DNA of 57,418 nt from a virus: IMG/VR virus record IMGVR_UViG_3300029319_008709, positions 1,127 to 58,544 of that record. One strand, written 5' to 3'. Shown one piece after another: positions 33,595 to 55,124 of this stretch (positions are counted from its first letter, which is position 1; every line of letters begins with the position of its first letter). Position numbers and translations under genes: made by a program. The notes beneath the pieces were generated by a model. That model saw only the letters and a list, made by a program, of their open reading frames with translations, was not told the DNA's origin and did no database searches.

Positions 33595-34545
33595 TTACCA
33601 ATAAAACTTTTCTTTATAAAACTTTACTATTTTTGATATTTGAGAATCAAAATTAATTTTCGGCTCCCAACCTAGGGACCTTAGTTTGCTGTCATCTAAA
33701 GAATATCTCACGTCTTGTCCCGAGCGGACATGCCCAAAATCAACATATTCATACCAATTTTCATCGGTGCCAAAATATTCTCTAATAATAGACTTGACCG
33801 TTTCTTTGTTCTTTTGTTCAAATCCGCCAGCAACGTTATAAATCTCGTTTACAGATCCATTCTCTATTATTGTCATAACTGCTCGTGCTGTATCTGACGC
33901 GTGAAGCCAATTTCTTATTGGCTCTCCAGCGTCGTGAAGTCTAATTTTTTTGCCCCACTGTAGTAATTTAATGGCCAGAGGTACCAGTTTCTCATGATGT
34001 TGGTAAATTCCATAATTATTCGTGGGTCTAAAAATAATGTATTCTACCCCATAGGTTCTCGCCCATGCTTTTATTAACATATCAGACGATGCCTTGGAGG
34101 CTGAATATGGATTACTGGGGTTTAGAAGATCTGTTTCGGTATGTGAGCCGGTTTTAATATCCCCATATACTTCATCGGTGCTGAAATGAAAGAATACTGG
34201 TTTTTTACATATGTTGTCGGGCTTATTCCGAATCAGGTCTAATAAGTTTTTTACACCGGCAACATTGGTGTGAATAAAATCCGCACTATCCAAAATACTG
34301 TTGCCAACATGGGTTTCAGCGGCAGTATTAATAACGTAATCACAATCAGGCAAACTCTGCAGGTCTGCTATATCTTCTTTTAAAAATGTAAAATTGTTAT
34401 TTGCACTAAACTCGTGCAACAGCTCTGGGTTTGATGCATATGTACATTTATCAATTCCGTATACCTTCCATCCTTTGTCCAGGGCTTGTCTTGTGACATA
34501 CGATCCTATGAACCCTAAGCAGCCCGTAATAACTACCAATTTCAT
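33595..34545 (-). CDS. rmlB: dTDP-glucose 4,6-dehydratase
   Basis: This extended SDR enzyme would convert dTDP-glucose to dTDP-4-keto-6-deoxyglucose, the branch point to dTDP-rhamnose and dTDP-amino sugars. It has the glycine-rich GCLGFIG (residues 8-14), the dehydratase triad in STDEVYG (122-128), YSASK (147-151), RPTNNYG and RNWLHASD. I place the start at ATG 34545, with GGGAG just upstream, giving 316 residues; an in-frame start 20 codons earlier would overlap the cupin gene and lengthens a family that begins at the NAD site. RmlC, DegT enzymes and a formyltransferase are encoded upstream. RmlA is not in this window. Confidence 0.92.
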   Translation of the reverse strand: MKLVVITGCLGFIGSYVTRQALDKGWKVYGIDKCTYASNPELLHEFSANNNFTFLKEDIADLQSLPDCDYVINTAAETHVGNSILDSADFIHTNVAGVKNLLDLIRNKPDNICKKPVFFHFSTDEVYGDIKTGSHTETDLLNPSNPYSASKASSDMLIKAWARTYGVEYIIFRPTNNYGIYQHHEKLVPLAIKLLQWGKKIRLHDAGEPIRNWLHASDTARAVMTIIENGSVNEIYNVAGGFEQKNKETVKSIIREYFGTDENWYEYVDFGHVRSGQDVRYSLDDSKLRSLGWEPKINFDSQISKIVKFYKEKFYW

Positions 34546-34546
34546 A

Positions 34547-34912
34547 TTAATCTCCCTTTTCAATCCTGTGGGAGTCTTCATCGAAATGCTGAGTTGAGAA
34601 CTCAAATAGCTCCGTATCTTCTAGTGCCATCATCTGGTGGCGAAGTCCTCGATAAACATGAAAGTTGTCCCCTCGACCCAGTATGACCTCATTAGCATTA
34701 TCCAAGTCATCTTTATCAGAGTATTTAACCAAAACTTTTCCTGACTGTATATAGAAAACCTCGTCCTTCTTTACATGATAATGCCAAGAGCATTTTTTGC
34801 CCTTTGCAAAATAAAGTAATTTACCACAGTATTCCTCGTTGTTAACAATCCATTTTTCGAACCCCCAACCTTTGGGGACAAACTTAATCTCTTGCGTTGA
34901 AGAAGTCTTCAT
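34547..34912 (-). CDS. Cupin-fold protein, mannose-6-phosphate isomerase type II-like
   Basis: The 121-residue single cupin has CSWHYHVKKDEVFYI (about residues 41-55) with the H-x-H...E ligand set and a second-strand His in RGLRHQM (about 90). It resembles the C-terminal phosphomannose isomerase domain of type II enzymes and short cupins found in capsule clusters. It may interconvert or bind a sugar phosphate or nucleotide sugar. It overlaps the HAD gene by 29 bases and precedes RmlB. Mannose-6-phosphate isomerase activity is possible and would feed GDP-mannose to the epimerase genes upstream, but the family is too broad to fix the reaction. Confidence 0.7.
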   Translation of the reverse strand: MKTSSTQEIKFVPKGWGFEKWIVNNEEYCGKLLYFAKGKKCSWHYHVKKDEVFYIQSGKVLVKYSDKDDLDNANEVILGRGDNFHVYRGLRHQMMALEDTELFEFSTQHFDEDSHRIEKGD

Positions 34913-35210
34913 CGTTTATTCCTTTATCGTCTACGTATATATCTCCGGATGGTTTTCCTAAAAACAACGAGTGATACCTAACTCCCCAATCTTTGAGCTG
35001 CTGCTTTGTAAATTCGTAAAACTTAGCATATGCAAAAGACTCGGAATTATCACTGCGCCCCATTCCTCTAGCTGTTTGAAATATAATTTCATGCCCCTCA
35101 TCATATAGGGTATTCACTTTGTTTATTCTACTTTGCAAGGGCTTAGCAGTTGAATACTGCCCATCCGATACAGTACAGATTGTACCATCTATATCAAAAA
35201 CGTATGTCAT
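34884..35210 (-). CDS. Small HAD-type phosphatase of capsule/LPS cluster
   Basis: This 108-residue protein starts MTYVFDIDGTIC, with the nucleophile and acid/base Asp6 and Asp8 of the HAD superfamily. It continues with EIIFQTARGMGRS (the Thr of motif II) and ends with the acidic YVDDKGINDEDFF. It is short, about half a normal HAD, as in the compact phosphatases found beside sugar-nucleotide genes. The likely substrate is a sugar phosphate or sugar bisphosphate made by the adjacent kinase and adenylyltransferase. It starts in an ATGA overlap with the nucleotidyltransferase. It is not a typical GmhB sequence, so a heptose-bisphosphatase role is only suggested by context. Confidence 0.75.
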   Translation of the reverse strand: MTYVFDIDGTICTVSDGQYSTAKPLQSRINKVNTLYDEGHEIIFQTARGMGRSDNSESFAYAKFYEFTKQQLKDWGVRYHSLFLGKPSGDIYVDDKGINDEDFFNARD

Positions 35211-35596
35211 TGTCTCTCTAAAATTCTAGTGGTAGAGTAGCCGTCAATGAAGTTAAATATTCTCACCTCTGCAAGATCACTCCCTACAACGCGATCAGCT
35301 ACATAGTCCCCACCTTTGACTATAATATCAGGAGAGATACTCTTTATTAAGTTATAAGGTGTATTTTCATTAAACACTATAACTTCATCAACATATCTAC
35401 AAGACATTAAAGCAAAAATTCTATCTTCTTGCTTAAAGAAAGGGCGAGAAGGTCCCTTAAGGTCAGTCACGCTTGAATCGCTGTTCAGCCCCACTATCAC
35501 CCTTCCCAAAGATGAGCAATATCTTAGAAGCTCATAATGCCCTCTGTGAAGAATATCGAAACATCCGTTTGTGAATATTGTCCTAGTAATTTGCAT
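35207..35596 (-). CDS. hldC: HldE C-terminal-type sugar nucleotidyltransferase
   Basis: The 129-residue protein has the RfaE domain II signature: FTNGCFDILHRGHYELL (residues 8-24, with the HxGH nucleotide site), SVTDLKGPSRPF, KGGDY (94-98) and GYSTTRI at the end. In bacteria this domain adenylylates D-glycero-beta-D-manno-heptose 1-phosphate; the sugar kinase domain is usually fused to it in HldE. Here the kinase is a separate gene (36793). The gene overlaps the upstream SDR by 14 bases and is followed by the HAD phosphatase. ADP-heptose-like sugar is the best guess; another nucleotide-activated phosphosugar is possible. Confidence 0.85.
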   Translation of the reverse strand: MQITRTIFTNGCFDILHRGHYELLRYCSSLGRVIVGLNSDSSVTDLKGPSRPFFKQEDRIFALMSCRYVDEVIVFNENTPYNLIKSISPDIIVKGGDYVADRVVGSDLAEVRIFNFIDGYSTTRILERQ

Positions 35597-36509
35597 ACCA
35601 AGGGCTGTCTATTAAAGAGTAGGCTTTTATAAGTTGCTTAATACTCGTATCTAGATCATACAGGCATTCAAATCCCTTATCATAAATTTTCTGGCTACTG
35701 ACATTGTAGTCCCTAACATCTGGATCTTTCGTGAACTCTGCCTTGATAATTTCAAGCGGAAGATACTCGCCTATCTTTTCAGCTAATTGCAGCTTGTTCA
35801 TGTTCATCTCATCATGTCCAAGATTATAAGTTTCGTTTCTGCAGTCTTCCCAATTGTCTAGTAAAAACTTAAATGATCTACAGACGTCCCATATGTGAAC
35901 ATAATTTCTCATAAATTCGCATTCATACAACACTATGACACGATCTCTTAATGCCCTCAAGACAAAATTGTTTACGAGGAGATCCGTCCTCATCCTGCCC
36001 GAAGGACCACAGACTGTTGCAAGTCTAAACGTTGCACAATTTTCTGTTTCTCTAAAGATTGTCTCGGCCTCAACCTTGGTTTTGCCATAAAGCGAAACAG
36101 GATTTAGAGGAGACTCTTCTGTTACTACAGATCCATCAATACTCTTTCCATACCCTGAATTGGTGCATGGATATAACACAATCTGATCTAAGGATTTATT
36201 TTCGGCTAACCAACGATTGGCATTAAGATTTGTCTGTGTTGCTTCAACTGGCTTTCGATCGCACAAAGGAAATCCTACAAGAGCAGCTAACGGTATCACA
36301 ACATCATGGCTTGCAAGTAGCTTTTTATAAAGCGACGTATCTCTAACGTCTCCCTTGATAAAATTGAATTTATCGTTCTGAACATATCGTAGCAAGGAAT
36401 CATGCCCATACATTAAATTATCTAAAACTGTTACTTCATGTTGAGGCAGTAAAAATTGTACCAGCTCGCTACCGATATATCCTGCGCCTCCTGTAATCAA
36501 AATTTTCAT
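35583..36509 (-). CDS. NAD-dependent sugar epimerase/dehydratase (SDR, WcaG-like)
   Basis: The enzyme of about 308 residues is an extended SDR with GGAGYIG at the start of the Rossmann fold, IPLAALVG, PCTNSGYGKS and YGKTK as the catalytic Tyr-x3-Lys. I start at ATG 36509 rather than eight codons earlier; it has AGGGAGA upstream and an ATGA overlap with the DUF962 gene. It sits inside the HldE-like kinase/adenylyltransferase group, so an ADP-heptose epimerase-like step is one option, but it lacks the characteristic HldD sequence that I know. Its exact substrate cannot be read; UDP- or dTDP-sugar epimerisation remains possible. Confidence 0.82.
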   Translation of the reverse strand: MKILITGGAGYIGSELVQFLLPQHEVTVLDNLMYGHDSLLRYVQNDKFNFIKGDVRDTSLYKKLLASHDVVIPLAALVGFPLCDRKPVEATQTNLNANRWLAENKSLDQIVLYPCTNSGYGKSIDGSVVTEESPLNPVSLYGKTKVEAETIFRETENCATFRLATVCGPSGRMRTDLLVNNFVLRALRDRVIVLYECEFMRNYVHIWDVCRSFKFLLDNWEDCRNETYNLGHDEMNMNKLQLAEKIGEYLPLEIIKAEFTKDPDVRDYNVSSQKIYDKGFECLYDLDTSIKQLIKAYSLIDSPWYANY

Positions 36510-36796
36510 CGCTCTACTCTCCCTAGAATCCAATCTTTTAACATAATCCAGTCAGCCATTTTTGCAAATACGGGGTTGCTAAATGCGGCGGGCTTGTTTT
36601 TCTCATAAAAATAATGCCCTGACCACGCAAAAGGATAAACAACAAATGGCGAAAATACAATAAGAATTAACGGCAGCTTTGTCAAACATAGTATAACATA
36701 TAATATTGTAGATACCTGCCCCAAGACATGCAATCTTCTGTTTACTTTGTTCTGGTGCAGTGACAAATAGTGCTGGTAATACCGACTAAACGTCAT
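36506..36796 (-). CDS. Mpo1/DUF962-like membrane protein
   Basis: The 96-residue product, started at ATG 36796 in an ATGA overlap, has the DUF962/Mpo1 pattern: YYQHYLSLHQNKVNRRLHVL (residues 6-25) with His14 and His23, two hydrophobic helices, then FAWSGHYFYEKNKPAAFSNP with His61. The conserved His pattern is that of Mpo1-like iron-dependent enzymes, which in yeast oxidise 2-hydroxy fatty acids. It is roughly half the usual length. An earlier in-frame start at 36838 exists but would read back through the kinase stop. It is embedded in the sugar-kinase group, so it may alter lipid A or another lipid anchor of the glycan; this is inference. Confidence 0.72.
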   Translation of the reverse strand: MTFSRYYQHYLSLHQNKVNRRLHVLGQVSTILYVILCLTKLPLILIVFSPFVVYPFAWSGHYFYEKNKPAAFSNPVFAKMADWIMLKDWILGRVER

Positions 36797-37557
36797 AGCG
36801 TGCTTACGCCCCTCTGCTGTACAACCTTTGTTGCACATTCATTTGCATATTCAATGCTGATTTTAATATTGTTTGTTTCAATATATTTATGTACTAGTCC
36901 AGCTAAAAATGAATCTCCAGCACCAGTTAGATCCTTAACTTCAACTCTTTTCACTGGGTATGTGCCCTCTTTATACCTGCACCCTTTAGAACCTAGGGTT
37001 ACGATTAGGCTTTCTTGAATCCAATCTTGTAAATTCTCCAAAAGATGTTTACTTCTTTCATACTCGTATTCATTAACTTTAATAAATTTACAGTTTCGAG
37101 CGTATGAGCCGAGCAACTTTTTAGTATCCAAAAATACCATATCATGATTGCTAGATATAAATTCTATATCTTTTTCTGATAAGAAACCTTTATTGTAATC
37201 GGAAATTATGATGGCATCAAACTGTTTGATGTAGTTAACCCACTTCTGCCTGTCCTTTATTCTTTCGAAGATACGCTCGTCGCTCACGTCTCCCTTATCT
37301 AGACGCATAATCATGTGATTATTCTTATGCTCAACAAATCTAGTTTTTACAATTTTAGAAGCGTCATTGCATACAAGTTCGCATTCAAGTCCTAAGCTTA
37401 ATATATTTTCGTAAACATTCCCTGCCATTCCAAGATTAGTTTTGCGATGCACAGGAATAAAAACCGGAACAGGAGCAGCAGGGCAAAGCCTATCACACTT
37501 TCCATAAACATAAACATCAGTGCAGCCATCACCTACTACTAGAATCTTTACTCCCAA
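36793..37557 (-). CDS. hldA: PfkB-family sugar kinase, HldE N-terminal-like
   Basis: The protein of about 254 residues is a ribokinase/PfkB kinase with the ATP/anion-hole motif TGAGDSFLAGL (Asp215 acting as base) and N-terminal ILVVGDGCTDVYVYG. It phosphorylates a sugar phosphate, most likely the heptose step that in HldE is fused to the adenylyltransferase found at 35207. The start is uncertain: TTG at 37557 has GGGAG five bases upstream and is preferred over a TTG four codons earlier (37569). Family members usually start near the IL-VVGD strand. Its 3' end is ATGA-coupled to the DUF962 gene. Confidence 0.82.
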   Translation of the reverse strand: MGVKILVVGDGCTDVYVYGKCDRLCPAAPVPVFIPVHRKTNLGMAGNVYENILSLGLECELVCNDASKIVKTRFVEHKNNHMIMRLDKGDVSDERIFERIKDRQKWVNYIKQFDAIIISDYNKGFLSEKDIEFISSNHDMVFLDTKKLLGSYARNCKFIKVNEYEYERSKHLLENLQDWIQESLIVTLGSKGCRYKEGTYPVKRVEVKDLTGAGDSFLAGLVHKYIETNNIKISIEYANECATKVVQQRGVSTL

Positions 37558-37949
37558 CTGATCTCCCAATCTTTAAATTCAGCCGCAAGACAATCAATCT
37601 TGTAGTCTTTTCTGCCGCCAACAACTTCTTGAATTTTGTTTTTGGCGGTGTTTCGAATGCCATTTAATCCATGCGTTAATTCTAGATTATTTCCGTCTTT
37701 AATACCTTTACGATAATTTGATTCATTGTGCCAAATATGAAGATTCATTTGCGAAAGAACTACGATTGCTCGCAGAGTTTCAGCATCAACCTTCGCATCA
37801 GCTAGCAATAAATCAATATCATGTAAGATATCCTTTATCTCTTGGGCATATTCGTCTCTGTGTTCTGATATGAAAACCTCTTTTAGTTGGGCTATCGATA
37901 GCCGATCAATTAGTTCCGACAGAGTTGGTAAATATTTACGATTTGACAT
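37548..37949 (-). CDS. Hypothetical protein opening a glycan sub-operon
   Basis: The 133-residue protein has no recognised motif beyond an N-terminal LPTLSELIDRLSIAQLKEVF, which looks like a helical interaction segment, and an acidic middle. Its 5' end is the only gene start in this cluster preceded by a real gap (64 bases), which contains a candidate promoter. The gene overlaps the kinase by a few bases. It could be a regulator or partner of the sugar-activation group. A ribosome-binding site AAAGGTGAT lies upstream of the ATG. Confidence 0.6.
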   Translation of the reverse strand: MSNRKYLPTLSELIDRLSIAQLKEVFISEHRDEYAQEIKDILHDIDLLLADAKVDAETLRAIVVLSQMNLHIWHNESNYRKGIKDGNNLELTHGLNGIRNTAKNKIQEVVGGRKDYKIDCLAAEFKDWEISWE

Positions 37950-37977
37950 TTTTTTGTATCACCTTTAATTATAATTC

Positions 37978-38010: not shown

Positions 38011-38013
38011 AAA

Positions 38014-38976
38014 TTAGTTATATCCTTGCTTTTCCGCTTTATACCATTCTATAGTCTTTTTTAATCCATCTTCTATTGTTGTTGATGGAACATATCCGAC
38101 TGCCTCTTGAAACTTCTGCATATCATAAAATCGCCTAGGTTGCCCATCGGGCTTGCTCGTGTCCCAAACTATCTCTCCATCAAAGCCGGTAAGTTCTCCA
38201 ATGGCTTCCACCAATTCCCTAATAGTAGTCTCCACTCCGGTGCCCAGATTAAATGGGCCTGTCTCATTTACCCTCTCTGCCATGTCAATGATAGCCTGTG
38301 CTGTATCTACAGAATATAAGAACTCTCTGGATGCTACGCCAGTTCCCCACACTACCACCTTCTTATCTCCGCGTTCTTTAGCCTCGATAAACTTTCTGAT
38401 TAAAGCCGGAACGACATGCGATGTTTCTAAATCAAAATTATCATGAGGACCATAAAGATTAGCAGGCAACAAGATTACTGAATTGAAATTATATTGTTCT
38501 CGATATGTCCACGACTGAATTATCAAATTCTTCTTTGCCATAGAATACCCAATAGAATTTTCATCGGGCAAATCTTTCCAGAAGTCTTCTTCAGTATAAG
38601 GAACGGGTAACATCTTGGGATATCCGCAGCCGGCTGCCAATGCCACAACTTTCTCAGCACCATTAACATAAGCGTAGTGCATCACAAGGGAGCCCATCAT
38701 GATGTTTTGATAAAAGAATTCTGCCGGCCTTGCTTTGTTGGCACCGATTCCTCCCACTTTACCCGCCAAGTGTAGAATAATATCTGGTTTATGCTCGGAA
38801 AAGTACTTTGATACTTGTTCCTCTTTGGTAAGATCTACATCGTTTCTAGTTGGCGCAAGTATAACAAAATGATTCTTTTCCTGTTCTTTTAACAAAAGAG
38901 TCATTAAGTTTTTGCCTACAAAGCCATGAGCGCCAGTTACTAAGACTTTTTTACCTTTCCAGAAGCTACTATTCAT
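38014..38976 (-). CDS. fcl: GDP-L-fucose synthase-like SDR epimerase/reductase
   Basis: The 320-residue protein matches GDP-4-keto-6-deoxymannose 3,5-epimerase/4-reductases: GAHGFVG (15-21), HLAGKVGGIGANK, CGYPK, YSMAK (Tyr144, Lys148), PANLYGPHDNFD and TSHVVPALIRKF with His187. Cys117 and His187 correspond to the acid/base pair Cys109/His179 of the Escherichia coli enzyme. The residue aligned with its catalytic Ser107 is Ala115, an unusual loss. It would make GDP-L-fucose from the Gmd product; Gmd is not in this window. The GT11 fucosyltransferase at 43610 is a natural partner. A 64-base gap follows. Confidence 0.82.
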   Translation of the reverse strand: MNSSFWKGKKVLVTGAHGFVGKNLMTLLLKEQEKNHFVILAPTRNDVDLTKEEQVSKYFSEHKPDIILHLAGKVGGIGANKARPAEFFYQNIMMGSLVMHYAYVNGAEKVVALAAGCGYPKMLPVPYTEEDFWKDLPDENSIGYSMAKKNLIIQSWTYREQYNFNSVILLPANLYGPHDNFDLETSHVVPALIRKFIEAKERGDKKVVVWGTGVASREFLYSVDTAQAIIDMAERVNETGPFNLGTGVETTIRELVEAIGELTGFDGEIVWDTSKPDGQPRRFYDMQKFQEAVGYVPSTTIEDGLKKTIEWYKAEKQGYN

Positions 38977-39904
38977 TTATTTTTCTCCAAAAATTAGAAA
39001 CACTATATTGCTCCACATGCTTGTTAGCGGCTGTTACAATGCCCCAATATTTATCATAATTATTGTGAACATCATGTAGTATTTCTCTAAGATGATCGAT
39101 GTTTTCCCAATACAAAAAATGCTTATCAGGCTCAAACCACTCCTCAATAACTGAATATTTGTCCTTGTACATCAACATTAGCGTCATGGAGGCAGCGGAC
39201 TCAACCATTCTCGTTTTCATTTGCGGCATTGTTTCGCCTCTTAACATATCTTCAATTCTATTAGAAGTTTTATATTCTTTCAAATAAAAATCAGCGTGTG
39301 GAATAACTTTAGGAAAAATCATATTAATGCCAACACAGCTTTTAGATGAATTTAACAATCGCCATTTTTCAGGCGTTGTTAGATTATAGTTCGTTACCAA
39401 GCTAGCCAATTCTTGATCAATTCCATGAGAAGAAATTGTTGTAAACCTATGATTATATTTTGCAATCTCTTTTACCATTGGCTTATAAGAGTCATCGTGG
39501 ATTTGACCATAATAGATACAATCATATTTTTTATTTCTTAAAGACTCGTCGGCACCATAATACTTAAAAAACCTCTCCGGATAGGGGAAACACACCGCTT
39601 CCGAATTAACTCCGTTTAAGTTCAGCATCTCAGATGTCAGCGGACATATGGTATAAATTTTTGTAAAGTACCTAGCTTTCTCAATAAAGTCAGGTTGAGT
39701 ATCTAAAAAAGCACATGGAGAAGCAGTATCAAGAAAAATACGATGTTCATAATGTTTATATTTGTTCTTTAAATCATCATCTGAAAGGCATGCCCATCCC
39801 CAAAAGAAAACTTTGTTCTCTGAATGATTGGCGTACTCATTGAAGTTAAAGTATTTAACTATACAATCGGGATACTCTCCTCCCTCTTTTCTAGCAACAA
39901 TCAC
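38969..39904 (-). CDS. Glycosyltransferase, CgeB/GT1-like
   Basis: The 311-residue protein looks like a GT-B transferase of the CgeB or Glyco_trans_1_2 type. It has a Tyr/Asp/Lys-rich N-terminal Rossmann half with IFLDTASPCAFLD, the linker CIYYGQIHDDSYKPMVKEIA, and a C-terminal domain with TMPQMKTRMVESAAS (the Glu region binding the nucleotide) and KHFLYWENIDHLREIL. The sugar and acceptor are unknown. The start is GTG 39904 in a GTGA overlap with the epimerase stop. It is placed between the GDP-mannose epimerase and the fucose synthase, so it may use a GDP-linked sugar made by those enzymes. Confidence 0.65.
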   Translation of the reverse strand: MIVARKEGGEYPDCIVKYFNFNEYANHSENKVFFWGWACLSDDDLKNKYKHYEHRIFLDTASPCAFLDTQPDFIEKARYFTKIYTICPLTSEMLNLNGVNSEAVCFPYPERFFKYYGADESLRNKKYDCIYYGQIHDDSYKPMVKEIAKYNHRFTTISSHGIDQELASLVTNYNLTTPEKWRLLNSSKSCVGINMIFPKVIPHADFYLKEYKTSNRIEDMLRGETMPQMKTRMVESAASMTLMLMYKDKYSVIEEWFEPDKHFLYWENIDHLREILHDVHNNYDKYWGIVTAANKHVEQYSVSNFWRKINE

Positions 39905-40899
39905 GCACTTTCCTTAACTTGTTTTGAAATCCATTCGTAGGTCCTGCTCATGCCTTCTCGCAACGGCTCAGAAACCTTCCATCCAATCATCTCTTCATAA
40001 AGGTTGTTATCTGAATTTCTACCATGTACGCCCAGAGGCCCATCAATATTTTTAATGCCCAGTTCTTTTCCTGATAGATTGATCACCAAGCGAGCAAAGT
40101 TTTGAATGGTTATCATCTCTTCAGATCCAATATTTACTGGTCCCTCAAAATCAGACTGCATTAGGCGTCGAGTGGCTTCTATGCACTCGTCTATATAAAG
40201 GAATGATCGTGTTCGGCTTCCATCGCCCCAGACCTCAATCTCGCCACCATTATTAGCTTCGGCAACTTTTCTGCAAAAAGCTGCTGGAGCTTTTTCTCTG
40301 CCACCTTGCCATGTTCCCTCTGGTCCATAAATGTTATGATATCTAGCAATTCGAACATTTAGCCCGTGGTTACGAGCAAAAGCTAGATATAAACGCTCAC
40401 TAAATAGCTTTTCCCATCCATATTCTGAATCAGGTGCAGCTGGATAAGCGCTATCCTCTGAGCACTTAGGGTTGTCTGGATCTAACTGGTTGTATTCTGG
40501 ATACATACAAGCTGAGGAAGAGTAAAATACTTTTCCTACTTTTTGCTTTGTAGCATACTCAGCAACGAGAAGATTTATTAAAGCTGAATTGTGCATAATG
40601 TCTGCGTCATTCTCGCCAGTAAAGATAAAGCCGGCGCCGCCCATATCGGCAGCAAACTGATAAACTTCATCAGCAGCCGTATAAACTGGATAATCCTCTA
40701 CGGGACATAGAAATATTTTTCGAACAACTTCTGGATCTCTTAGGTCGCCTTGAACAAAATCATCGCAAACTTCTGTAATATCAAAAAAATCATGGCGCTT
40801 GATATCTACGCCGCGGACCCAATAGCCTTCACTTTTAAGTCTTTTGCACATCGCGCCACCGATGAATCCTCCCGCGCCTAAAACAACTGCTGTTTTCAT
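39901..40899 (-). CDS. gme: GDP-mannose 3,5-epimerase
   Basis: The 332-residue SDR is strikingly like plant-type GME: FAADMGGAGFIF, IMHNSALINL, YSSSACMYPEYNQL, DSEYGWEKL, RYHNIYGPEGTWQGGREKAP and RSFLYIDECI, then GPLGVHGRNSDN near the end. The four catalytic residues of Arabidopsis GME (Cys145, Tyr174, Lys178, Lys217) map to Cys131, Tyr160, Lys164 and Lys203, all with the same offset of 14. It should convert GDP-mannose to GDP-L-galactose and GDP-L-gulose. It is ATGA-coupled to the upstream dehydrogenase. ManC or another GDP-mannose source is not seen here. This enzyme is best known from plant ascorbate synthesis, so its use in a phage glycan locus is notable. Confidence 0.88.
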   Translation of the reverse strand: MKTAVVLGAGGFIGGAMCKRLKSEGYWVRGVDIKRHDFFDITEVCDDFVQGDLRDPEVVRKIFLCPVEDYPVYTAADEVYQFAADMGGAGFIFTGENDADIMHNSALINLLVAEYATKQKVGKVFYSSSACMYPEYNQLDPDNPKCSEDSAYPAAPDSEYGWEKLFSERLYLAFARNHGLNVRIARYHNIYGPEGTWQGGREKAPAAFCRKVAEANNGGEIEVWGDGSRTRSFLYIDECIEATRRLMQSDFEGPVNIGSEEMITIQNFARLVINLSGKELGIKNIDGPLGVHGRNSDNNLYEEMIGWKVSEPLREGMSRTYEWISKQVKESA

Positions 40900-41999: not shown

Positions 42000-42000
42000 T

Positions 42001-47367: not shown

Positions 47368-47368
47368 T

Positions 47369-48199: not shown

Positions 48200-48813
48200 T
48201 TCGAGTTGCCTTTGTCTTTAAATAACGTAAATTCTGTAAGATCGCGGTATGGAGGATCTTCTGGTATGTCTGGTACATGTTCAGGGTAATTCTGCATAAG
48301 CATAAGACCTCTAACAGCCTGCTCAGGAGTCATATACATGTTCCATCCCATGGAATCAATATCGTCGTCCTGATATCTAATTCCCTCACTCCTGCCTTCA
48401 TATCGTGCTTCTCGCACCCAATCAACAAGCTCTTTATTATCAGTAAGGATCATACCGCCTTTTCCAATTTTAAGATGCTTTTTAATGTGAAAAGATAAAC
48501 ACATATGAGATCCCGGGATGTACATGCCAGAAGTTAGACGCTTCGCAGCATCCCAAATAGGATAGGGTTTTAACTGATATGCCCCCTGCCACTTGACGTC
48601 CTCAAAATGAACTGTTCCGCCGGCCTGTATAATTGACTGTGGCACAGATAGATATGTTCGTCTTGGTATCGTAACATCTTTTACACCGAAATATTCACAG
48701 CATAAAAAAATAGCATTTGTGCAATTGTTTACAGAGACAGCATAAGGGGCACCAGTATAGTCTGCCATCTCCTCTTCAAACATTTTTACAATTTTATATG
48801 GATTGTGTCTCAT
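48196..48813 (-). CDS. Compact DegT-type PLP aminotransferase
   Basis: The 205-residue protein has recognisable DegT core motifs: VNNCTNAIFL near residue 28 (PLP phosphate), YPIWDAAKR with the Asp88 ring contact, and LSFHIKKHLKIGKGGMI with Lys112 as the likely Schiff base. Full DegT enzymes have about 360-400 residues, so the C-terminal small domain is mostly missing, and the large domain also looks shortened. It ends cleanly at an ATGA overlap, and both ends are coupled to neighbours, so it is not an obvious frameshift fragment. It may be a minimal enzyme, a partner of the full-length DegT at 44487, or a decayed but translated copy. Confidence 0.7.
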   Translation of the reverse strand: MRHNPYKIVKMFEEEMADYTGAPYAVSVNNCTNAIFLCCEYFGVKDVTIPRRTYLSVPQSIIQAGGTVHFEDVKWQGAYQLKPYPIWDAAKRLTSGMYIPGSHMCLSFHIKKHLKIGKGGMILTDNKELVDWVREARYEGRSEGIRYQDDDIDSMGWNMYMTPEQAVRGLMLMQNYPEHVPDIPEDPPYRDLTEFTLFKDKGNSK

Positions 48814-49204
48814 TATTTTTTTCCAATATGTAATATTGCTTTATAAATCCGCATTTTTCAAACAATTTTAAGCTAGCTTTGTTTTCCACTTTAACTTTCG
48901 CATATGCCTGTGGGTCGAGCTTCATTATATTTTCTATCATGAAGGCTCCTACACCTTGCCCTTGGAAATCCGGATGGGTCGCGACTCTGATATCGTGATT
49001 GATTACGCCAACGTATCCTGCAGGAGTGCCTTCCACAGTACAAATATAATACAAATGACCGTACTTTTTCATATATATTTTATGATTGTCGGGTTCAATG
49101 TGCTCTTGTTGAATAAAACCCTGCCTTACGCCATCCATATTTCTTAATTGTCGGATGAATTCCCAATAATCTTCTCTATTCTTAACAAAAAGTTTTAGCC
49201 CCAT
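48794..49204 (-). CDS. GNAT-family N-acetyltransferase
   Basis: The 136-residue protein has GNAT motif A, RVATHPDFQGQGVGAFMI (residues about 73-90), binding acetyl-CoA through QGQGVG, and motif B, VENKASLKLFEKCGF. GNAT enzymes in capsule loci acetylate amino sugars, so it may act on the amine introduced by the adjacent DegT enzyme, as an alternative to formylation. It overlaps the upstream and downstream genes by 10 and 20 bases. Protein or other small-molecule acetylation cannot be excluded. Confidence 0.82.
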   Translation of the reverse strand: MGLKLFVKNREDYWEFIRQLRNMDGVRQGFIQQEHIEPDNHKIYMKKYGHLYYICTVEGTPAGYVGVINHDIRVATHPDFQGQGVGAFMIENIMKLDPQAYAKVKVENKASLKLFEKCGFIKQYYILEKNNETQSI

Positions 49205-49992
49205 TGGTCTACTTGACTCCCAAACGGACTACCAGAATTTAGCCAGTAAGATGTAAGATACCCCCTTGTGTGTTTCCAGCCCTCCAAGTCCAACAGAGGG
49301 TTCAAGCAGGAGCCAATATCTAAAAATGTATTATTATTGTTATCTTTAAAGCATTCATAAATGACATAATTGGTTAATGACGCCGCAGAACAAAGTATAA
49401 CAGCATCTTGTATATTGTTATTGCTAATGTAGTTTTTTACTTCATCTACTGTATCGTAGTTATTTATCATGCAGTTTGATCCAATAATAAAGCTGTGGTC
49501 TACTTGAAATGGAAGCTTGCTAACGTTGGCGTTCTCGTTAACAACGTATAATACTTCACGATCCACGAGCGCTGGGATCATCTCTTCAATAAATCTTTTA
49601 TAGTTTGCATTAATGAGCAAATTAGCGTAAGTTAAATTTTCGTGATCGCCGCCATGACAATCAATCATCCAATCAAAGTTTTCTTTACCAACATGACCAT
49701 CTGTAGAGGTGCATATTCCCTTATAATAATGATCTTGATTGTGAATGTAAGATTCCATCAACTTATTGCGATAAAACCCATGCTGTTCAGGGTGGAACTC
49801 TTTTTGCTCCTCTATCGTGTAGATATTTGAGCCCTTAACATCTCCCGTTACATAATGATTTTGAGCCAAAACAACAGTTTTGTTTTGTAGTATGAATAGC
49901 TCACCATCAGAAAATCTAGTAAATGCAAAGTTTTCCTTATTTTTCAACTTGTTTAGCAGAAAGTCAAATGACTTTTTATAATCCTTCAGCAT
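49195..49992 (-). CDS. GT-D-like glycosyltransferase (putative)
   Basis: The 265-residue protein contains AFTRFSDGELFIL (residues 23-35), similar to the RFGDGE motif of the GT-D fold transferases once called DUF1792. It also has a later segment LDIGSCLNPLLDLEG that fits the conserved Asp of that family, and NQDHYYKGICTS mid-way. No DxD of GT-A or E-x7-E of GT-B is seen. GT-D enzymes extend glycans on glycoproteins in some bacteria. It starts in a TAATG overlap with the WecB gene, so UDP-ManNAc could be its donor. Confidence is moderate because the match is from the motif alone. Confidence 0.55.
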   Translation of the reverse strand: MLKDYKKSFDFLLNKLKNKENFAFTRFSDGELFILQNKTVVLAQNHYVTGDVKGSNIYTIEEQKEFHPEQHGFYRNKLMESYIHNQDHYYKGICTSTDGHVGKENFDWMIDCHGGDHENLTYANLLINANYKRFIEEMIPALVDREVLYVVNENANVSKLPFQVDHSFIIGSNCMINNYDTVDEVKNYISNNNIQDAVILCSAASLTNYVIYECFKDNNNNTFLDIGSCLNPLLDLEGWKHTRGYLTSYWLNSGSPFGSQVDQWG

Positions 49993-50984
49993 TAAAAACC
50001 CTCTGACAAAAGAACGTTACGAATCTTAACCCCTGAATGTCCATCTCCATATGGGCATTCGCCTTCCGGGATGTGATCATCAATTAATGATATAAAGTTA
50101 TCCCTTAAGTTTAAGGGTGTAGAAGTTACTGAGAACGTTCCCATTCCTTCTATTCTTTCAGTGTACTCTCTGCAAACGATGCATTTCTTCCTTAAGAATG
50201 AAGACTCTTCTTGTAGTCCTCCAGAGTCAGTAATAACAAGCCTACTATTAGCCAAAAGATCTATAAATTCATTATGCGGAAGTGGATCGACCACCTTAAC
50301 CTTTTCTAACAAATCACGGTGCCTCTGCACATTGGGGTTTGGGTGTATTGGTAGTATAAACTCGTACTGAGGGAATTCGTTCGCCAAATCTTCAAGTGCT
50401 AAGAACCACGTATTCATTATCGGATGGTTCTCTCTTCTATGAAGCGTGACTGTCACTTTATTCTGATAGCTGGTTTCCACCTCTGTGAGGTGATCTAAAA
50501 CTGTGTTTCCTACGACAAATATCTTTCCATCAACTTTTTCAGATCTTAGGTTTTGTGCTGACTCTTCTGTGGGACACAAATGAAGATCGGCCATAATTGA
50601 CACTGCTCTTCTATTAAACTCCTCGGGATAAGGGTGATCGATGTTATAAGAACGAAGTCCAGCCTCAAGATGAATAATTTTTATCCTCCTATGGAACGCC
50701 CCTAAAGCAATTGCAAAAACTGAGGTCGTATCCCCCTGTACCAAGACAGATGATACTCCATCAAATATATCCGGATTGGTGTTCATTAGGCTTTCCACAA
50801 TCGAATCGAGCCTATTTGGTCCGTTTACTATTGCTAGCTCTGTAATATCTTCATTAATATTGCTTAATAGATCTACATGTTGACCCGTAAAAAGTAGCTT
50901 GTAATCTATATGCCCCCTGATTGCTTCCAGAACTGGCTTAATTTTTACATACTCAGGTCTTGTGCCAAAACATATTAACATCAT
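49992..50984 (-). CDS. wecB: UDP-GlcNAc 2-epimerase (non-hydrolysing)
   Basis: The 330-residue enzyme shows WecB signatures: CFGTRPEYVKIKPVLE (5-20), TGQHVDLL, VQGDTTSVFAI (Asp85), HLEAGLRS (Glu107), HPYPEEFNRR and TDSGGLQEES near the end. It interconverts UDP-GlcNAc and UDP-ManNAc, a GT-B-like reaction by anti elimination. It is somewhat shorter than WecB (376 in Escherichia coli). A nucleotide-sugar dehydrogenase is present 8 kb downstream; together they could make UDP-ManNAcA as in enterobacterial common antigen and capsules. Its start is ATGA-coupled to the two-domain glycosyltransferase. Confidence 0.92.
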   Translation of the reverse strand: MMLICFGTRPEYVKIKPVLEAIRGHIDYKLLFTGQHVDLLSNINEDITELAIVNGPNRLDSIVESLMNTNPDIFDGVSSVLVQGDTTSVFAIALGAFHRRIKIIHLEAGLRSYNIDHPYPEEFNRRAVSIMADLHLCPTEESAQNLRSEKVDGKIFVVGNTVLDHLTEVETSYQNKVTVTLHRRENHPIMNTWFLALEDLANEFPQYEFILPIHPNPNVQRHRDLLEKVKVVDPLPHNEFIDLLANSRLVITDSGGLQEESSFLRKKCIVCREYTERIEGMGTFSVTSTPLNLRDNFISLIDDHIPEGECPYGDGHSGVKIRNVLLSEGF

Positions 50985-52600
50985 GATAACTTAACTCCTC
51001 TTACAGTTTCCCATCCCTTTGACAATCCCGTTTGTACGCACATATCTCTTTCAGAGAAAAACTGCTGATGAGATACAGAAGAATTTGTAGAGGTAGCCTT
51101 ATCATCAATACCTAACTCATTCCCCATAACGGACCCATGGAGGCTCAGATCGGCTGCTGGGTGCGGTGGACAGTAGGTTTTGATGTCCCCATATACCTTA
51201 GCCATAAAAGCGAACTGTATGTCCTCTCCGTTGTCCCAGGTGACTGGCTTCTCTTGCCATAAAAATCTTAACCATTCTCTCTTGAAAAACCATGCGTGCC
51301 CTACCAAATCCACCTCTGTTGTGGTTTCATTCTTAGTTGGCCAACCACATCGATCATGGTTAACATAACGATCGCTCTTTAGAATAATGCCGGCGCTTCC
51401 CAAAATACCCTCATTTGTTTTCATAGTATCCAAACAGTTTTCATGCCAGCGACTCCCTGGAACTGTATCATCATCATATATTGCAACGTATTCTGTATTG
51501 GCTAAAAGTGCAGCCGCAAACCTACCATAAAACTTCCAGTTAAAATCATTATTGAAAACGCGATCCACTCCCAATGATGATGGATCAAAATCTTTATTGT
51601 CTTCGTGATAGTTTACCCAAAGCCAAATTTGCTTTGGAGGAACAGACTGTGCCTTAAGGGCTTCAACCTGCATTTTTAGATTGTATGGTCGCCTATAGCA
51701 GTTAAGAATAACTGTGATATCGCCATCAGCTACGGCAGTCTTTTCTGGCAGACCTGTCGTCTCCTCAATCAGGGTGACAATTTGATCTCTTCTGGCGTCA
51801 ACAAAATCTATTAATTCCTCACCTTTTAGCTTTTTAAACCACGGCTCATAGGTACAGCCATTATTATTGTTTGTGACAATTTTACAACCAAGCATACGAG
51901 CTTCTAGAATTATTCTGCTGAATGTCTCTAGTGTCTGCGGGAAGAATACAAACGAACTATACTCTCCCAAGCACTCTATAAAATTATCGTAACTTTTCTT
52001 CTCTTGTAAATCAAAAGCTAACTCTTTCTCCTTGCAATACTTAATAGCATCCGGTGTTCCTTTAATCTTGTTATTATCATTAATAATATAAGCTTTATTG
52101 TTTTTATCTTTAATTGAATTCTTAATCTTTTTTAGCTGGTCGGACGTCCACAATGAACACCCTAAGTTGACTACATTATCAATCTCTAAGTTTAGATGCA
52201 AAACCTCAGCATGCTTTACAGATTGACAAAACACATTTTTAGCTGCACTATAAAATGCTTTATTTATGATAAATTGAGGGGGTGCTTTAAAGCCTGCAAA
52301 CACTGATGGGTTTCTGGTTCTTAGGTATTTGTGATCATGCTCCATGATCGAATAGAGACCCGGATTTAGGGTAAGATATTTTTTAACTTCCTCACTTAAA
52401 GTCACAAAATTAGAAATTAGAAATGTAAAACCACAGTCTTTATACAACTGAATATGCTTTATTGTTACTTCTCTGGACTTGAAGGAGCACACTTTCACTC
52501 CTCTTTCGCGAAGTTCGGAAATTAATACATCATCACAAATTTCGCCGCCGCCATTAATTTCATTAACAAAAAAATCAGATATAAAAACTAGTTTTTTCAT
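50981..52600 (-). CDS. Two-domain glycosyltransferase (GT-B-like plus GT-A/GT2-like fusion)
   Basis: The 539-residue protein joins two transferase halves. Residues about 1-285 resemble a GT4-type GT-B enzyme that lacks a full N-terminal acceptor domain: KKLVFISDFFVNEINGGGE and FVFFPQTLETFSRIILEARM with the E-x7-E region. Residues about 293-539 are GT-A: ITVILNCYRRPYNL, YVAIYDDDTVPGSRW with DDD 376-378, and DLVGHAWFFKREWLRFLW. The combination could add two consecutive sugars. It overlaps genes on both sides in ATGA junctions. The GT-A half resembles exostosin/GT64-like sequences more than typical GT2, but that is by eye. Confidence 0.7.
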   Translation of the reverse strand: MKKLVFISDFFVNEINGGGEICDDVLISELRERGVKVCSFKSREVTIKHIQLYKDCGFTFLISNFVTLSEEVKKYLTLNPGLYSIMEHDHKYLRTRNPSVFAGFKAPPQFIINKAFYSAAKNVFCQSVKHAEVLHLNLEIDNVVNLGCSLWTSDQLKKIKNSIKDKNNKAYIINDNNKIKGTPDAIKYCKEKELAFDLQEKKSYDNFIECLGEYSSFVFFPQTLETFSRIILEARMLGCKIVTNNNNGCTYEPWFKKLKGEELIDFVDARRDQIVTLIEETTGLPEKTAVADGDITVILNCYRRPYNLKMQVEALKAQSVPPKQIWLWVNYHEDNKDFDPSSLGVDRVFNNDFNWKFYGRFAAALLANTEYVAIYDDDTVPGSRWHENCLDTMKTNEGILGSAGIILKSDRYVNHDRCGWPTKNETTTEVDLVGHAWFFKREWLRFLWQEKPVTWDNGEDIQFAFMAKVYGDIKTYCPPHPAADLSLHGSVMGNELGIDDKATSTNSSVSHQQFFSERDMCVQTGLSKGWETVRGVKLS

Positions 52601-53874
52601 TCGAATTCCAAAACCAACTCGTTACTTTCCTTTTCTTCTAATGTCTCAATCGAGGACGAATCAAACCCTAGCACAGAATCAACAAATTGTTTGTGAATCT
52701 TATCGTGAGAAAATTTATCTAAAATATACTTTTGAAGAGATTTAGCCTTCTCACGGAAATGTTTTTCTTTATCTAAACTTTCCTGTAGAGCGCGTTTAAA
52801 GGATGACTCTTTTGCATATGCCCACTTAGCATCCTCAACAATAACATTGTTCCAAACAACTTCTTTCTGAACTTGTCTGATGTCATAGTCCACAGGTATC
52901 ACCATAGGCACCAGCTTTCCCTTCTTGTTTGGTTTGCAAATAAAGTCCATCTGTCCGGACCATGTGACTGTGATTAGCGGTAGTCCATGACATGCAGCCT
53001 CGAATAAGGGAAGCCCAAACCCCTCGCCGTGACCAATATTGATTAAGGCTTTCATTGTTGGGTGCTCATATAGCCATGCTAGACCGCCCGCGGGCAGCTC
53101 TCCATGAATTAAATAAACTGAGCACTTACGCTCACCTAGTGAATCTAATAGAATCTGCAGTCTATTTTGAGTAAACTCTCTATCCATTACAGTGTCTGAG
53201 GCTGTATTCGTTTTTACAACAAGCCCAACATCAGGATCATCTTTAAACTTTTCTACAAACCATTTAATGGTGTTTTCCAAGTTCTTTCGGGCGCCCCATT
53301 GAGAAATGGTAATAAAATTCTTGCTAGTCTTAAAATCAATATTAATTTCATTGGGCTCCGATACACGGACAGGATAGTTGATAGACTCCACAGGGACTTG
53401 AAGACCCCAACCTTTGTGTTCATTACCGGCCTGATCACGAAGATCATACTTCGTCTGTTCAAAAACCTTTTTTCCGTGCTCTGATACGGTAATAACTTTA
53501 TTAACTGCTTCGTTTGCTTTCGCAATCCACTCAGGCGCTACTTTTGTGGTTTCAATGCCAGCCGTATACCCAATGTTGATGGGTGCGATGGCTTCAAATT
53601 CGTTTGGTATTGTAACTTGTATCGATATGTCGAAAGCTGGTTGATTGTTGTTTTGCTGAATATGTATCGCGGTTCTATGCAGCGCTTCCCTTATGTAGTT
53701 TGTCTCTTCAGTAACTTCTGACTGCTGTCCTGTTCTCCCCCAAGGAATGTTCACTAGGTGAATATCAAATAAATCCTCGCGGGACCGGAGAGCCTTAAGA
53801 ATACATCTCGCCTGCTCGCCATAACCAGACCTAGATAACACAGGACCCTTAATTAAAACCTTTTTCTTAAACAT
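52597..53874 (-). CDS. GT4-family glycosyltransferase
   Basis: The 425-residue GT-B protein has an N-terminal acceptor domain and a C-terminal GT4 donor domain with EGFGLPLFEAACHGLPLITV, the E-x7-E signature at about 283-291. An unusual N-terminus begins FKKKVLIKGPVLSRSGYGEQ. The protein has no membrane helix and probably works on a cytoplasmic acceptor. It starts in a TAATG overlap with the upstream GT4 gene, so the two may be sequential enzymes. The sugar donor cannot be read from the sequence. The C-terminal tail ends in an acidic run with EEKESNELVLEFE. Confidence 0.85.
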   Translation of the reverse strand: MFKKKVLIKGPVLSRSGYGEQARCILKALRSREDLFDIHLVNIPWGRTGQQSEVTEETNYIREALHRTAIHIQQNNNQPAFDISIQVTIPNEFEAIAPINIGYTAGIETTKVAPEWIAKANEAVNKVITVSEHGKKVFEQTKYDLRDQAGNEHKGWGLQVPVESINYPVRVSEPNEINIDFKTSKNFITISQWGARKNLENTIKWFVEKFKDDPDVGLVVKTNTASDTVMDREFTQNRLQILLDSLGERKCSVYLIHGELPAGGLAWLYEHPTMKALINIGHGEGFGLPLFEAACHGLPLITVTWSGQMDFICKPNKKGKLVPMVIPVDYDIRQVQKEVVWNNVIVEDAKWAYAKESSFKRALQESLDKEKHFREKAKSLQKYILDKFSHDKIHKQFVDSVLGFDSSSIETLEEKESNELVLEFE

Positions 53875-55124
53875 TAGTATACCTTCACTTCGTATGATTC
53901 ATAGCCCTTACGATCTTCCCAAGAGCCTTTTTCTTCGTAAATTGACATAAATAAATCATCCCATGTTTGAATAAACTTATCAAAACTAAAGCGATCTTCT
54001 GTCCAAGCACGACCTGCCATGCCAAGTTCTCCTCTATCTTCAGGAGTCATTTCGTAAAGTTCCGTCAGGGCATTAATAAAATCATCTTTATTTAGACGAT
54101 CTTCGTAGATATACGGAACCTGTTGAGATCCAATAATTGCTTTTGAAGTGGGTTGCAAACCTATTCCAAAGAACTTTTCACCATCTGTTACCTGATCTTG
54201 GAGACCTCCTGTCATATTGACTAAAATAGGCGTTCCGCAAGATAGTGATTCTAAGGTTGAAAGACCAAATCCTTCTGCATCAGAAATACAAATAGTAAGA
54301 TCTGCCATATTGTACATCCCAGCAAGATCTGCAGCATCAACTTTATCTCTGGAGAATAATACCTGTCCATCAGTTAAACCTAACTCATGTATAATCGCTT
54401 CTAGATCCTGTCCATGCTGATCCTTTACATCTGTATGCATAATAAGACACGCATTGTCGTGACCAACCTTATCCAAGAAGTCCTTGAACCACCATATCAA
54501 TGTCCCAGATTGTTTACGTCGAGCGTTGCGGCTATTCCAAAAGCACACAAATTTATCATCTAAATTCTTAGACATTCTCCACGCCTTAACTTCGTCTGCG
54601 GTATGGGGCTTAAAAATATCTCCATCAACAGCATGCGGGATATAAGAGGAATCAACCTCTGGCGCCACGGTCTGAACTATGTCGTGCGTTACCTTAGAAA
54701 TGCAGGCAACATGATCATTGGAAAGATAAAACTTGCGATTAAACTTAGGGTATGGATAATTGTCCCAAACGTGGTAATAAACCATCGGAACGTGGGCTCT
54801 GATTTCATTCTCAACAGCCCACAGCCAATCATAGAACCTTGGGTCTGTCATAAACCAAACTATGTCTGGCTTTTGCTGGTGTATCATGGCGCGCACCATA
54901 TCCTGATTGCCGTAGCCATCTACAGGCCAAATAATCCAATCATCTCCCCATTGCTCAGTTCTTTGGGGCTGGTGATCTGGGTGCTTAATAGCCCCTCCAA
55001 ATGATACAAACTGATACTTACCAGTTTTCAACATCCCTTGGATAATATATTTTGTTTGAGTTCCGACACCACTCGGAGACAGCGGATGATCGCTGATGGT
55101 GAAAATCTTAATCTTATCTGACAT
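53874..55124 (-). CDS. GT4-family glycosyltransferase
   Basis: This 416-residue GT-B protein opens with IFTISDHPLSPSGVGTQTKY (the GxGT loop of GT4 enzymes). Its second domain carries FVCFWNSRNARRKQS and SDAEGFGLSTLESLSCGTP with the E-x7-E motif. It resembles large-phage and marine-bacterial GT4 proteins. It is the first gene transcribed in the glycan cluster. The ATG at 55124 is eight bases from the nuclease gene, with an AGG-type site overlapping the preceding stop. Donor and acceptor are unknown. Confidence 0.85.
   Translation of the reverse strand: MSDKIKIFTISDHPLSPSGVGTQTKYIIQGMLKTGKYQFVSFGGAIKHPDHQPQRTEQWGDDWIIWPVDGYGNQDMVRAMIHQQKPDIVWFMTDPRFYDWLWAVENEIRAHVPMVYYHVWDNYPYPKFNRKFYLSNDHVACISKVTHDIVQTVAPEVDSSYIPHAVDGDIFKPHTADEVKAWRMSKNLDDKFVCFWNSRNARRKQSGTLIWWFKDFLDKVGHDNACLIMHTDVKDQHGQDLEAIIHELGLTDGQVLFSRDKVDAADLAGMYNMADLTICISDAEGFGLSTLESLSCGTPILVNMTGGLQDQVTDGEKFFGIGLQPTSKAIIGSQQVPYIYEDRLNKDDFINALTELYEMTPEDRGELGMAGRAWTEDRFSFDKFIQTWDDLFMSIYEEKGSWEDRKGYESYEVKVY

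Follow-up and report, generated by a model that had tools for sequence, protein, structure and literature searches.

A cluster of sugar-enzyme and glycosyltransferase genes lies at positions 33595–55124 of the DNA analyzed here, which is called the window (57,418 nucleotides) and comprises bases 1127–58544 of a 62,578-base linear IMG/VR record, IMGVR_UViG_3300029319_008709, that may itself be a fragment. Comparison with related viral contigs shows that this locus has a fixed position and conserved anchor genes, and that the block between its conserved ends undergoes wholesale allelic replacement. We somewhat favor the view that it is a fixed, exchangeable glycan locus of the RM378-type (Far-T4) phage lineage, where cytoplasmic enzymes would start a glycan on a phage protein and the products of the block would complete it. 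Whether it further amounts to a lineage-wide, O-antigen-like serotype system on the phages' own particles, with the two anchor glycosyltransferases as primers on a virion protein and with blocks of ∼6–24 kb, recombining between diverged phages whatever their adhesin type, giving near-identical phages different glycan coats, is to us an evenly balanced question.

A fixed site between phage genes

The cluster consists of 27 open reading frames (ORFs; ≥60 aa) on the minus strand, all of them open and overlapping or abutting, with a single gap larger than 25 nt (64 nt at 37950–38013). An earlier note on this DNA described 28 contiguous genes on one strand and named broken genes as a possible refutation; the single strand and the contiguity stand, the count is 27, and all the ORFs are open. 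On both sides lie phage genes, as that note had it: those for PhoH, a PD-(D/E)XK exonuclease, a RuvC-like protein, a gp55-like sigma factor and a gp6-like baseplate protein. A near-identity search (megablast) of the cluster DNA against 50,697 phage records returned no match.

Starting from the exonuclease (55133; genes are named here by their first coordinate), we took the best 80 of 90 matching stretches as 80 viral loci. The order exonuclease–GT4a–GT4b recurs among them, with the anchor glycosyltransferase GT4a in 79 and its neighbor GT4b in 77. Each of the three exceptions is explained by a sequence end that falls ahead of or inside the expected place. The gp55-like gene was sought in 50 records (many of the 30 loci left aside are short contigs or duplicates) and was present in 46. 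We read 45 of these 46 loci, omitting G028 as a duplicate of G027. This set retains the near-duplicates G005/G011, G033/G035 and G020/G022, and was split by record handle number into 29 close and 16 distant relatives. Exonuclease, GT4a and GT4b were present in all 45 loci and the downstream 65-aa gene (33386) in 41, and the span from exonuclease to gp55 ranged from 11.4 to 28.4 kb.

These comparisons bear on two trivial explanations. One is that the assembly is a chimera of bacterial and phage contigs, a concern for which there is precedent, as a marine survey of auxiliary metabolic genes discarded contigs with lipopolysaccharide (LPS) islands as possible host islands (PMC11360552). Because 45 contigs (a few of them near-duplicates), including many from other metagenomes, show identical gene junctions, and a like arrangement is seen in the isolates Flavobacterium phage immuto and Microcystis phage Mel-JY01, we regard a chimera, which the earlier note had named as a possible refutation, as barely credible. 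The other is that the block is passenger DNA, a stuffer for headful packaging with no selected function, an idea raised for the LPS clusters of cyanophages (PMC3037559). We consider this very improbable: none of the 27 overlapping ORFs is interrupted, such a block fills the interval from exonuclease to gp55 in every one of the 45 records read, and the anchors are conserved at the protein level.

The interior is exchanged as a block

In contrast to the anchors, the 25 interior genes of the window were each found, at ≥40% identity, in 0 to 20 of the 45 loci. The HAD and cupin genes were the commonest (20 and 17 loci), and three genes (47369, the 2-oxoglutarate (2OG) oxygenase gene at 46705 and the formyltransferase gene at 46131) had no relative in any. 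Both ends of the block, the GT4b stop codon and the 65-aa gene, could be called in 42 loci (the window among them), and the length between them was 5.7–23.6 kb. Among all 1035 pairs of loci, the four pairs with GT4a 90–95% identical had on average 5% of their interior genes in common, and 168 pairs had at least one interior gene (≥60% identity) exceeding the identity of GT4a by more than 8 points. All 17 interior genes of G009 and of G010 have counterparts in G045 (54–87% identity), although the GT4a proteins are 56–57% identical. The window has 13 interior genes in common with G027 and 6 with the distant G036.

The clearest case is a natural swap between G006 and G007, which come from separate metagenomes. 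Their GT4a and GT4b proteins are 99.5% and 95% identical, respectively, and their DNA outside the block is 96–97% identical on both sides. Upstream, identity ends 3.2 kb into the locus, within GT4b and ∼97–124 nt before its stop codon; it resumes ∼15 nt before the 65-aa gene and continues over the 26.6 kb compared, a region containing gp55, baseplate genes and a large adhesin-like gene. The two interiors (8.8 and 15.8 kb) have no gene in common. Proteins of the DAHP-synthase, cytidylyltransferase and sulfotransferase families are found in the G006 block. Given this other chemistry, we dropped the idea, present in the earlier note, that the sugar mix of the window is what sets it apart: the mix represents a single allele of an exchangeable block, whereas the site and the two anchor glycosyltransferases are conserved.

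For 21 phages (210 pairs) we compared block sharing with the divergence of the anchors and of presumed receptor-binding proteins, taking the last ORF of >1400 aa as 'adhesin' and the first as 'fiber'. The sample was the window plus 20 of the 45 loci, chosen partly for block sharing, and the adhesin of G005 is cut at the contig end. Rank correlations of block sharing with GT4a identity, adhesin and second fiber were 0.05, −0.06 and 0.10. GT4a identity, by comparison, tracks adhesin (rho 0.79) and fiber (0.86). As the pairs are non-independent and include near-duplicates that share everything, these correlations are descriptive and not a test. GT4a and GT4b diverge together (rho 0.86). From the swap pair and the contrast between these two sets of correlations, we conclude that exchange of the block is not tied to the presumed receptor-binding proteins.

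In the virion region of the window, a 2795-aa protein (10887–19274) with a concanavalin-A-like lectin domain (PF13385) is a probable adhesin.

The anchor glycosyltransferases in a phage lineage

GT4a and GT4b match proteins of immuto (32% and 31%) and of Mel-JY01. In both isolates a PD-(D/E)XK nuclease gene precedes GT4a, separated from it by a single gene (a small one or GuaB), and sugar-related genes come after. GT4a also matches Rhodothermus phage RM378, whose next gene aligns weakly with GT4b (94 residues, E 3e-6); as a ribonucleotide reductase gene follows, RM378 has no block at this place. The hosts of these three phages, Flavobacterium, Microcystis and Rhodothermus, belong to different phyla.

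To cellular genomes we applied two GT4a peptide patterns, which would miss remote bacterial relatives. In 84,980 species genomes (one per species) they hit 79 stretches, of which 8 were confirmed. Seven of the 8 contigs have the exonuclease upstream, and the eighth starts within GT4a and continues into GT4b. All appear to be phage contigs that were binned into metagenome-assembled genomes (MAGs). GT4a was found only beside phage genes. The MAGs holding these contigs (L161–L168) are labeled Maricaulis, Pelagibacter, Flavobacteriales, WOR-3, Neomarinimicrobiota, Woesearchaeota and others; one contig sits inside a 2.8-Mb 'chromosome', flanked on either side by runs of N that stem from scaffolding or masking.

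A tree of 16 Gp23/Gp24 proteins (FastTree) separates nine of the relatives, RM378, immuto and Mel-JY01 from T4, Sf-CH8 and HTVC008M with support 0.997. RM378, a member of the Far-T4 clade described by Roux et al. (PMC4360716), is the sole Far-T4 reference in this tree, and G034 (partial capsid) and G010, G023 and G041 (no match) were omitted. By way of its relatives' capsids, for example that of G011 (gp6 89% identical), the window phage is placed by sequence on the RM378 side. Phage records with a gp6-like match over ≥80% of the query number six (Mel-JY01, four immuto and one uncultured jumbo phage), and the same six are those with a GT4a match over ≥80% of the query. This association of GT4a with virion type is independent, and it spans hosts of different phyla, but four of the six records are one species.

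The Gp23-type capsids (L219–L227; 576–626 aa from the first Met) have a long, highly variable insertion relative to T4. This insertion is a possible candidate for a glycan-bearing surface.

Membrane functions, DNA modification and expression

The earlier note saw no Wzx, exporter or initiating transferase, and we extended this negative result to 47 records and 46 loci, with no family search aimed at ABC exporters. The families PF02397, PF01943 and PF00953, sought as markers of priming transferase, Wzx and WecA-type proteins, were each found in 0 of 47 records of up to 203 kb; among 14 control genomes they were positive in 9, 13 and 12. When the 1184 predicted ORFs of the 46 loci were scanned for hydrophobic 19-aa segments, 1100 lacked them and 83 had one; two segments were seen in a single ORF, which is on the minus strand and probably spurious. 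The same scan gave 6, 9, 8 and 3 segments for Wzy, Wzx, WzxC and WcaJ of E. coli. Of the hallmarks of a Wzx/Wzy-type locus, then, fixed flanks and a variable interior are present; a priming transferase, flippase and polymerase were not found (PF04932 was not searched).

Phage glycosyltransferases are reported to glucosylate DNA (PMC12619734), and immuto carries 7-deazaguanine genes, so we also considered whether the products of the locus glycosylate modified bases to protect the phage's DNA. The thymidylate synthase/dCMP hydroxymethylase family PF00303 was found in 0 of 47 records, mostly fragments (controls, 9 of 14 positive), which argues against glycosylation based on hydroxymethylcytosine (TET-type and 7-deazaguanine routes were not searched). 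A variable set of 25 sugar genes also seems excessive for base modification, and we think this explanation improbable.

A candidate sigma-70-type promoter lies upstream of the operon, inside phoH. At the same phoH codon position in 31 close-relative loci, 25 score 12/12, five score 11 and one scores 8; five further loci end before the site. Third codon positions within the site are 0.77–0.97 conserved, against a phoH mean of 0.55 (30 sequences). Among 32 distinct upstream regions of distant relatives, 24 have an 11–12/12 match within 120 nt of the exonuclease, compared with 0.5% of shuffles, and such a match occurs in 1 of 31 close relatives. A few distant relatives also retain a promoter match in phoH. 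From these sequence matches we infer transcription of the locus by the housekeeping polymerase of the host, probably at an early stage. The window contains 4 copies of the motif TATAAATA, where 4.95 would be expected, which leaves no basis for arguing for a late promoter.

The main rival to glycosylation of a phage protein is modification of the host envelope, whereby the LPS core or O-chain of the infected cell would be altered and superinfection blocked. Known phage serotype-conversion systems (gtr, oac) act via membrane proteins. No multi-transmembrane ORF was detected in the 46 loci by a simple scan (gtr and oac models were not searched). Besides, GT4a and GT4b are kept in phages whose hosts belong to different phyla, GT4a was found only with phage neighbors, and cassette type is independent of adhesin type. 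On the other side, the enzyme classes are those of LPS loci, the conserved promoter suggests early expression, and diversity concentrated in one locus would suit a changing host surface. A change of host surface is also the published reading for marine myophages, namely pelagimyophages and jumbo cyanophages (PMC7029224, PMC9123017). On balance we find this reading unlikely, though it is by far the strongest of the competitors.

Enzyme content of the window's allele

The features are listed in coordinate order in Table 1. The earlier note's view of a phage-encoded glycan operon is borne out, as sugar-enzyme and glycosyltransferase families were matched in a genuine phage contig. It had listed formylamino-sugar, L-galactose/L-fucose, N-acetylmannosamine, uronate and heptose-like routes; the enzyme families were indeed matched, but the routes look incomplete without host input. 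RmlB-like, RmlC, DegT and formyltransferase proteins would form the formylamino-sugar set, and HldA-like, HldC-like and HAD proteins the heptose-like set. Sequence matches make the assignments of the GDP-mannose 3,5-epimerase (GME), WecB, RmlC and the sugar dehydrogenase firm. Since several other enzymes match below curated cut-offs, substrates are guesses. No RmlA/ManC-type nucleotidyltransferase, Gmd (as best match) or GmhA-like isomerase is among the family matches of the window, and the host must therefore probably supply precursors. Instead of the seven glycosyltransferases counted before, we find six or seven: two exceed the Pfam cut-off (43610, 53874), four fall below it (38969, 49195, 50981, 52597), and 47369 has no match in Pfam, NCBIfam, PHROGs or PDB. 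Relatives of 50981 over 60% of its length occur in 3 of 45 loci.

Table 1. Predicted genes and other features of the locus and its flanks, in coordinate order
Feature	Position	Strand	Evidence and remarks
gp55-like late sigma factor, downstream landmark	31982..32668	-	phrog_234, E 3e-6; 46/50 records
Conserved 65-aa protein, downstream anchor	33386..33583	-	41/45 relatives; identity resumes here after swap
RmlB-like NDP-glucose 4,6-dehydratase; last gene of variable block	33595..34605	-	TIGR01181 318 bits, below cut-off 365
Cupin, possible sugar isomerase	34547..34912	-	PF07883
HAD phosphatase, EcbF/BcbF-like	34884..35210	-	TIGR01689, below cut-off
HldC-like (RfaE domain II) nucleotidyltransferase	35207..35596	-	TIGR02199 139 bits, below cut-off 181.5
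NAD-dependent sugar epimerase/dehydratase (SDR)	35583..36533	-	PF01370
Mpo1-like protein	36506..36838	-	PF06127 over cut-off
HldA-like (RfaE domain I) sugar kinase	36793..37569	-	PF00294; TIGR02198 below cut-off
133-aa helical protein, no known family	37548..37949	-	76–85% identity in eight relatives
GDP-L-fucose synthase-like (Fcl-like)	38014..38976	-	NF047922 287 bits, below cut-off 500; 7ll6 207 bits, E 3e-60
Glycosyltransferase (weak)	38969..39904	-	PF13524 below cut-off
GDP-mannose 3,5-epimerase (GME)	39901..40899	-	2c59 298 bits, E 1e-87
Nucleotide-sugar dehydrogenase	40896..42011	-	TIGR03026 over cut-off
NAD synthase-family protein (NadE-like)	42001..42816	-	PF02540, TIGR00552 over cut-off
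S-adenosylmethionine (SAM) methyltransferase	42765..43625	-	PF13847
GT11 (alpha-1,2-fucosyltransferase-like)	43610..44485	-	PF01531 over cut-off
Full-length DegT sugar aminotransferase	44487..45578	-	PF01041; 4zwv E 8e-71
RmlC-type 3,5-epimerase	45575..46150	-	TIGR01221 over cut-off
Short sugar N-formyltransferase	46131..46718	-	PF00551; top PDB match a sugar formyltransferase, E 3e-8
Possible 2OG-Fe(II) oxygenase, sporadic carbohydrate cluster type	46705..47367	-	TIGR04324 41 bits, below cut-off 150
Protein with no matched family; glycosyltransferase only by eye	47369..48199	-	No match; no relative in 45 cassettes
Half-size DegT-type sugar aminotransferase (mini-DegT)	48196..48813	-	∼200-aa family; model pLDDT 89; PDB matches to sugar aminotransferases
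GNAT acetyltransferase	48794..49204	-	PF00583
GT-D-like glycosyltransferase	49195..49992	-	PF22882 below cut-off
UDP-GlcNAc 2-epimerase, WecB type	49992..50984	-	PF02350, TIGR00236 over cut-off
Glycosyltransferase, GT2-like C-terminal part; first gene of variable block	50981..52600	-	PF00535 below cut-off
GT4b, second conserved anchor glycosyltransferase (GT4)	52597..53874	-	phrog_2170; 77/80 loci, 45/45; swap boundary near 3' end
GT4a, conserved anchor glycosyltransferase (GT4)	53874..55124	-	PF00534; 79/80 loci, 45/45
PD-(D/E)XK exonuclease, upstream anchor	55133..55915	-	PF12705, phrog_69; 45/45 relatives
Conserved protein between phoH and exonuclease	55905..56552	-	No family over cut-off; neighbor in relatives
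PhoH-like ATPase, 3' part; ORF continues past window	56768..57370	-	PF02562, phrog_2765; upstream neighbor where relatives reach
Candidate sigma-70-type promoter TTGACA-17-TATAAT, inside phoH	56964..56992	-	12/12

Two proteins of the block deserve a closer look. The mini-DegT protein (48196) belongs to a family of 195–241 aa that lacks the C-terminal small domain, the full DegT/DnrJ/EryC1/StrS proteins having ∼360–370 aa. D88 and K112 are invariant in 13 sequences and correspond, by alignment with full-length DegT, to the pyridoxal phosphate (PLP) aspartate and lysine. Relatives occur in 13 of 45 other cassettes, in immuto (43%), in a Synechococcus phage and in two large uncultured phages. The 37548 protein is 76–85% identical in eight phages whose GT4a is 55–76% identical to that of the window, which is unusually conserved for a gene of the variable block. 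It has no relative in the 50,697 phage records, and its helical model (predicted local distance difference test, pLDDT, 72) matched no fold in the PDB or among viral structures at E ≤ 0.001.

The Mpo1-like protein belongs to a family linked to lipid alpha-oxidation yet lies inside a sugar cluster, and has relatives in 8 of 45 other cassettes. Beyond the window, upstream of phoH, stretch L003 holds a second RfaE-II-like ORF (L003:1225–1791; 28% match to 35207–35596) and, recognized by eye only, a class II aldolase-like ORF (L003:2351–2962). There may be further sugar genes outside the locus.

Proposed mechanism and its weight

In the mechanism that we propose, the host polymerase would transcribe the operon early in infection, and the enzymes would draw on host sugar phosphates and nucleotide sugars. 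GT4a and GT4b would attach the first sugars, in the cytoplasm, to an acceptor encoded by the phage, probably one of its virion proteins, and the variable enzymes would build a strain-specific outer glycan on this base. Recombination in the conserved ends (the 3' end of GT4b and the 65-aa gene) would exchange the outer part, altering the surface type of the particle and leaving the adhesins unchanged. We find a glycan on a phage protein the simplest model because GT4a and GT4b track the lineage across host phyla, were seen with phage neighbors only and with no membrane partner, and are followed by a variable block. The earlier note had left three products open, namely a soluble or exported glycan, virion decoration and a change to host LPS; the comparative data favor decoration of the virion, although they are not proof.

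Several points weigh against this model. The glycan, glycoprotein and acceptor are all inferred from genes. Cytoplasmic glycosyltransferases could instead extend the host's LPS core on the inner leaflet, with the host flipping the product, and host modification would suit the early timing suggested by the sigma-70-type promoter no less than virion decoration does, if not better. Both the promoter scan and the hydrophobicity scan are simple, and the latter gives fewer than two segments even for the Mpo1-like protein. Most of the 47 records are fragments, PF01943 is one Wzx model, and the searches did not include Wzy (PF04932) or ABC exporters. The occurrence of GT4a in 8 of 8 RM378-type records and 0 of 3 others is a circular count, because those records were found through GT4a or its neighbor. 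The GT4a of Mel-JY01, annotated as two ORFs, may be broken. Finally, among solved structures the GT4a profile matches best that of B736L from chlorovirus NY-2A (E 6e-16, over almost the whole length). That this is a virus glycosyltransferase counts in favor of the model, but according to a review B736L binds GDP-mannose best and its acceptor and function are open; the capsid glycans of NY-2A lack mannose, and B736L may use another protein as acceptor or another sugar as donor, or be inactive (PMC9614988).

Relation to known systems

Bacterial O-antigen and capsule loci of the galF–gnd type have fixed flanks, a variable interior and whole-cassette swaps by recombination in the flanks. The locus described here is alike in all three respects; it differs in that its flanks are phage genes and that no Wzx or priming gene was found. 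Chloroviruses are eukaryotic viruses, unlike the phages here, and their glycosylation genes are not known to lie in one swappable locus. Their capsid glycosylation is similar in being cytoplasmic and using virus-encoded sugar and glycosyltransferase genes, and they have a conserved glycan core with variation among viruses (PMC5408694, PMC7826918), whereas the glycan here is a predicted one.

Sugar clusters in marine T4-like phages are already known (PMC3037559, PMC7029224). Those of the cyanophages P-SSM2, S-SSM7 and S-SM2 are likewise large, and one is near phoH; they differ in being described from the larger of the genomes and at differing sites, near hli03 and/or phoH (PMC3037559). GT4a was not found in Sf-CH8, the one cyanophage tested. 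The host recognition cluster of pelagimyophages is also a hypervariable glycosyltransferase island at a fixed site of T4-like marine phages, but it lies between VrlC and gp14 and contains tail fibers (PMC7029224). Our locus, in contrast, is apart from the large adhesin-like genes and begins with two conserved glycosyltransferases, and pelagimyophage HTVC008M has no GT4a. As far as the main text of the Far-T4 paper goes, the term 'glycosyl' is absent (PMC4360716). In the open literature, outside which most subscription papers fall, we found nothing on a fixed site with two conserved glycosyltransferases, a swap between near-identical phages or independence from adhesins.

LPS-like clusters of phages have been in print since at least 2010 without an agreed role (PMC3037559). 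A fixed locus with two conserved glycosyltransferases and swappable blocks lets the role of such clusters be tested: immuto is an isolate that carries these anchors together with a sugar block, and G006 and G007, with the same adhesins and different blocks, predict different glycans in near-identical phages. If the reading favored here is true, the surface types of phages would vary independently of their receptor-binding proteins, with a bearing on adsorption, decay, grazing and competition between phages.

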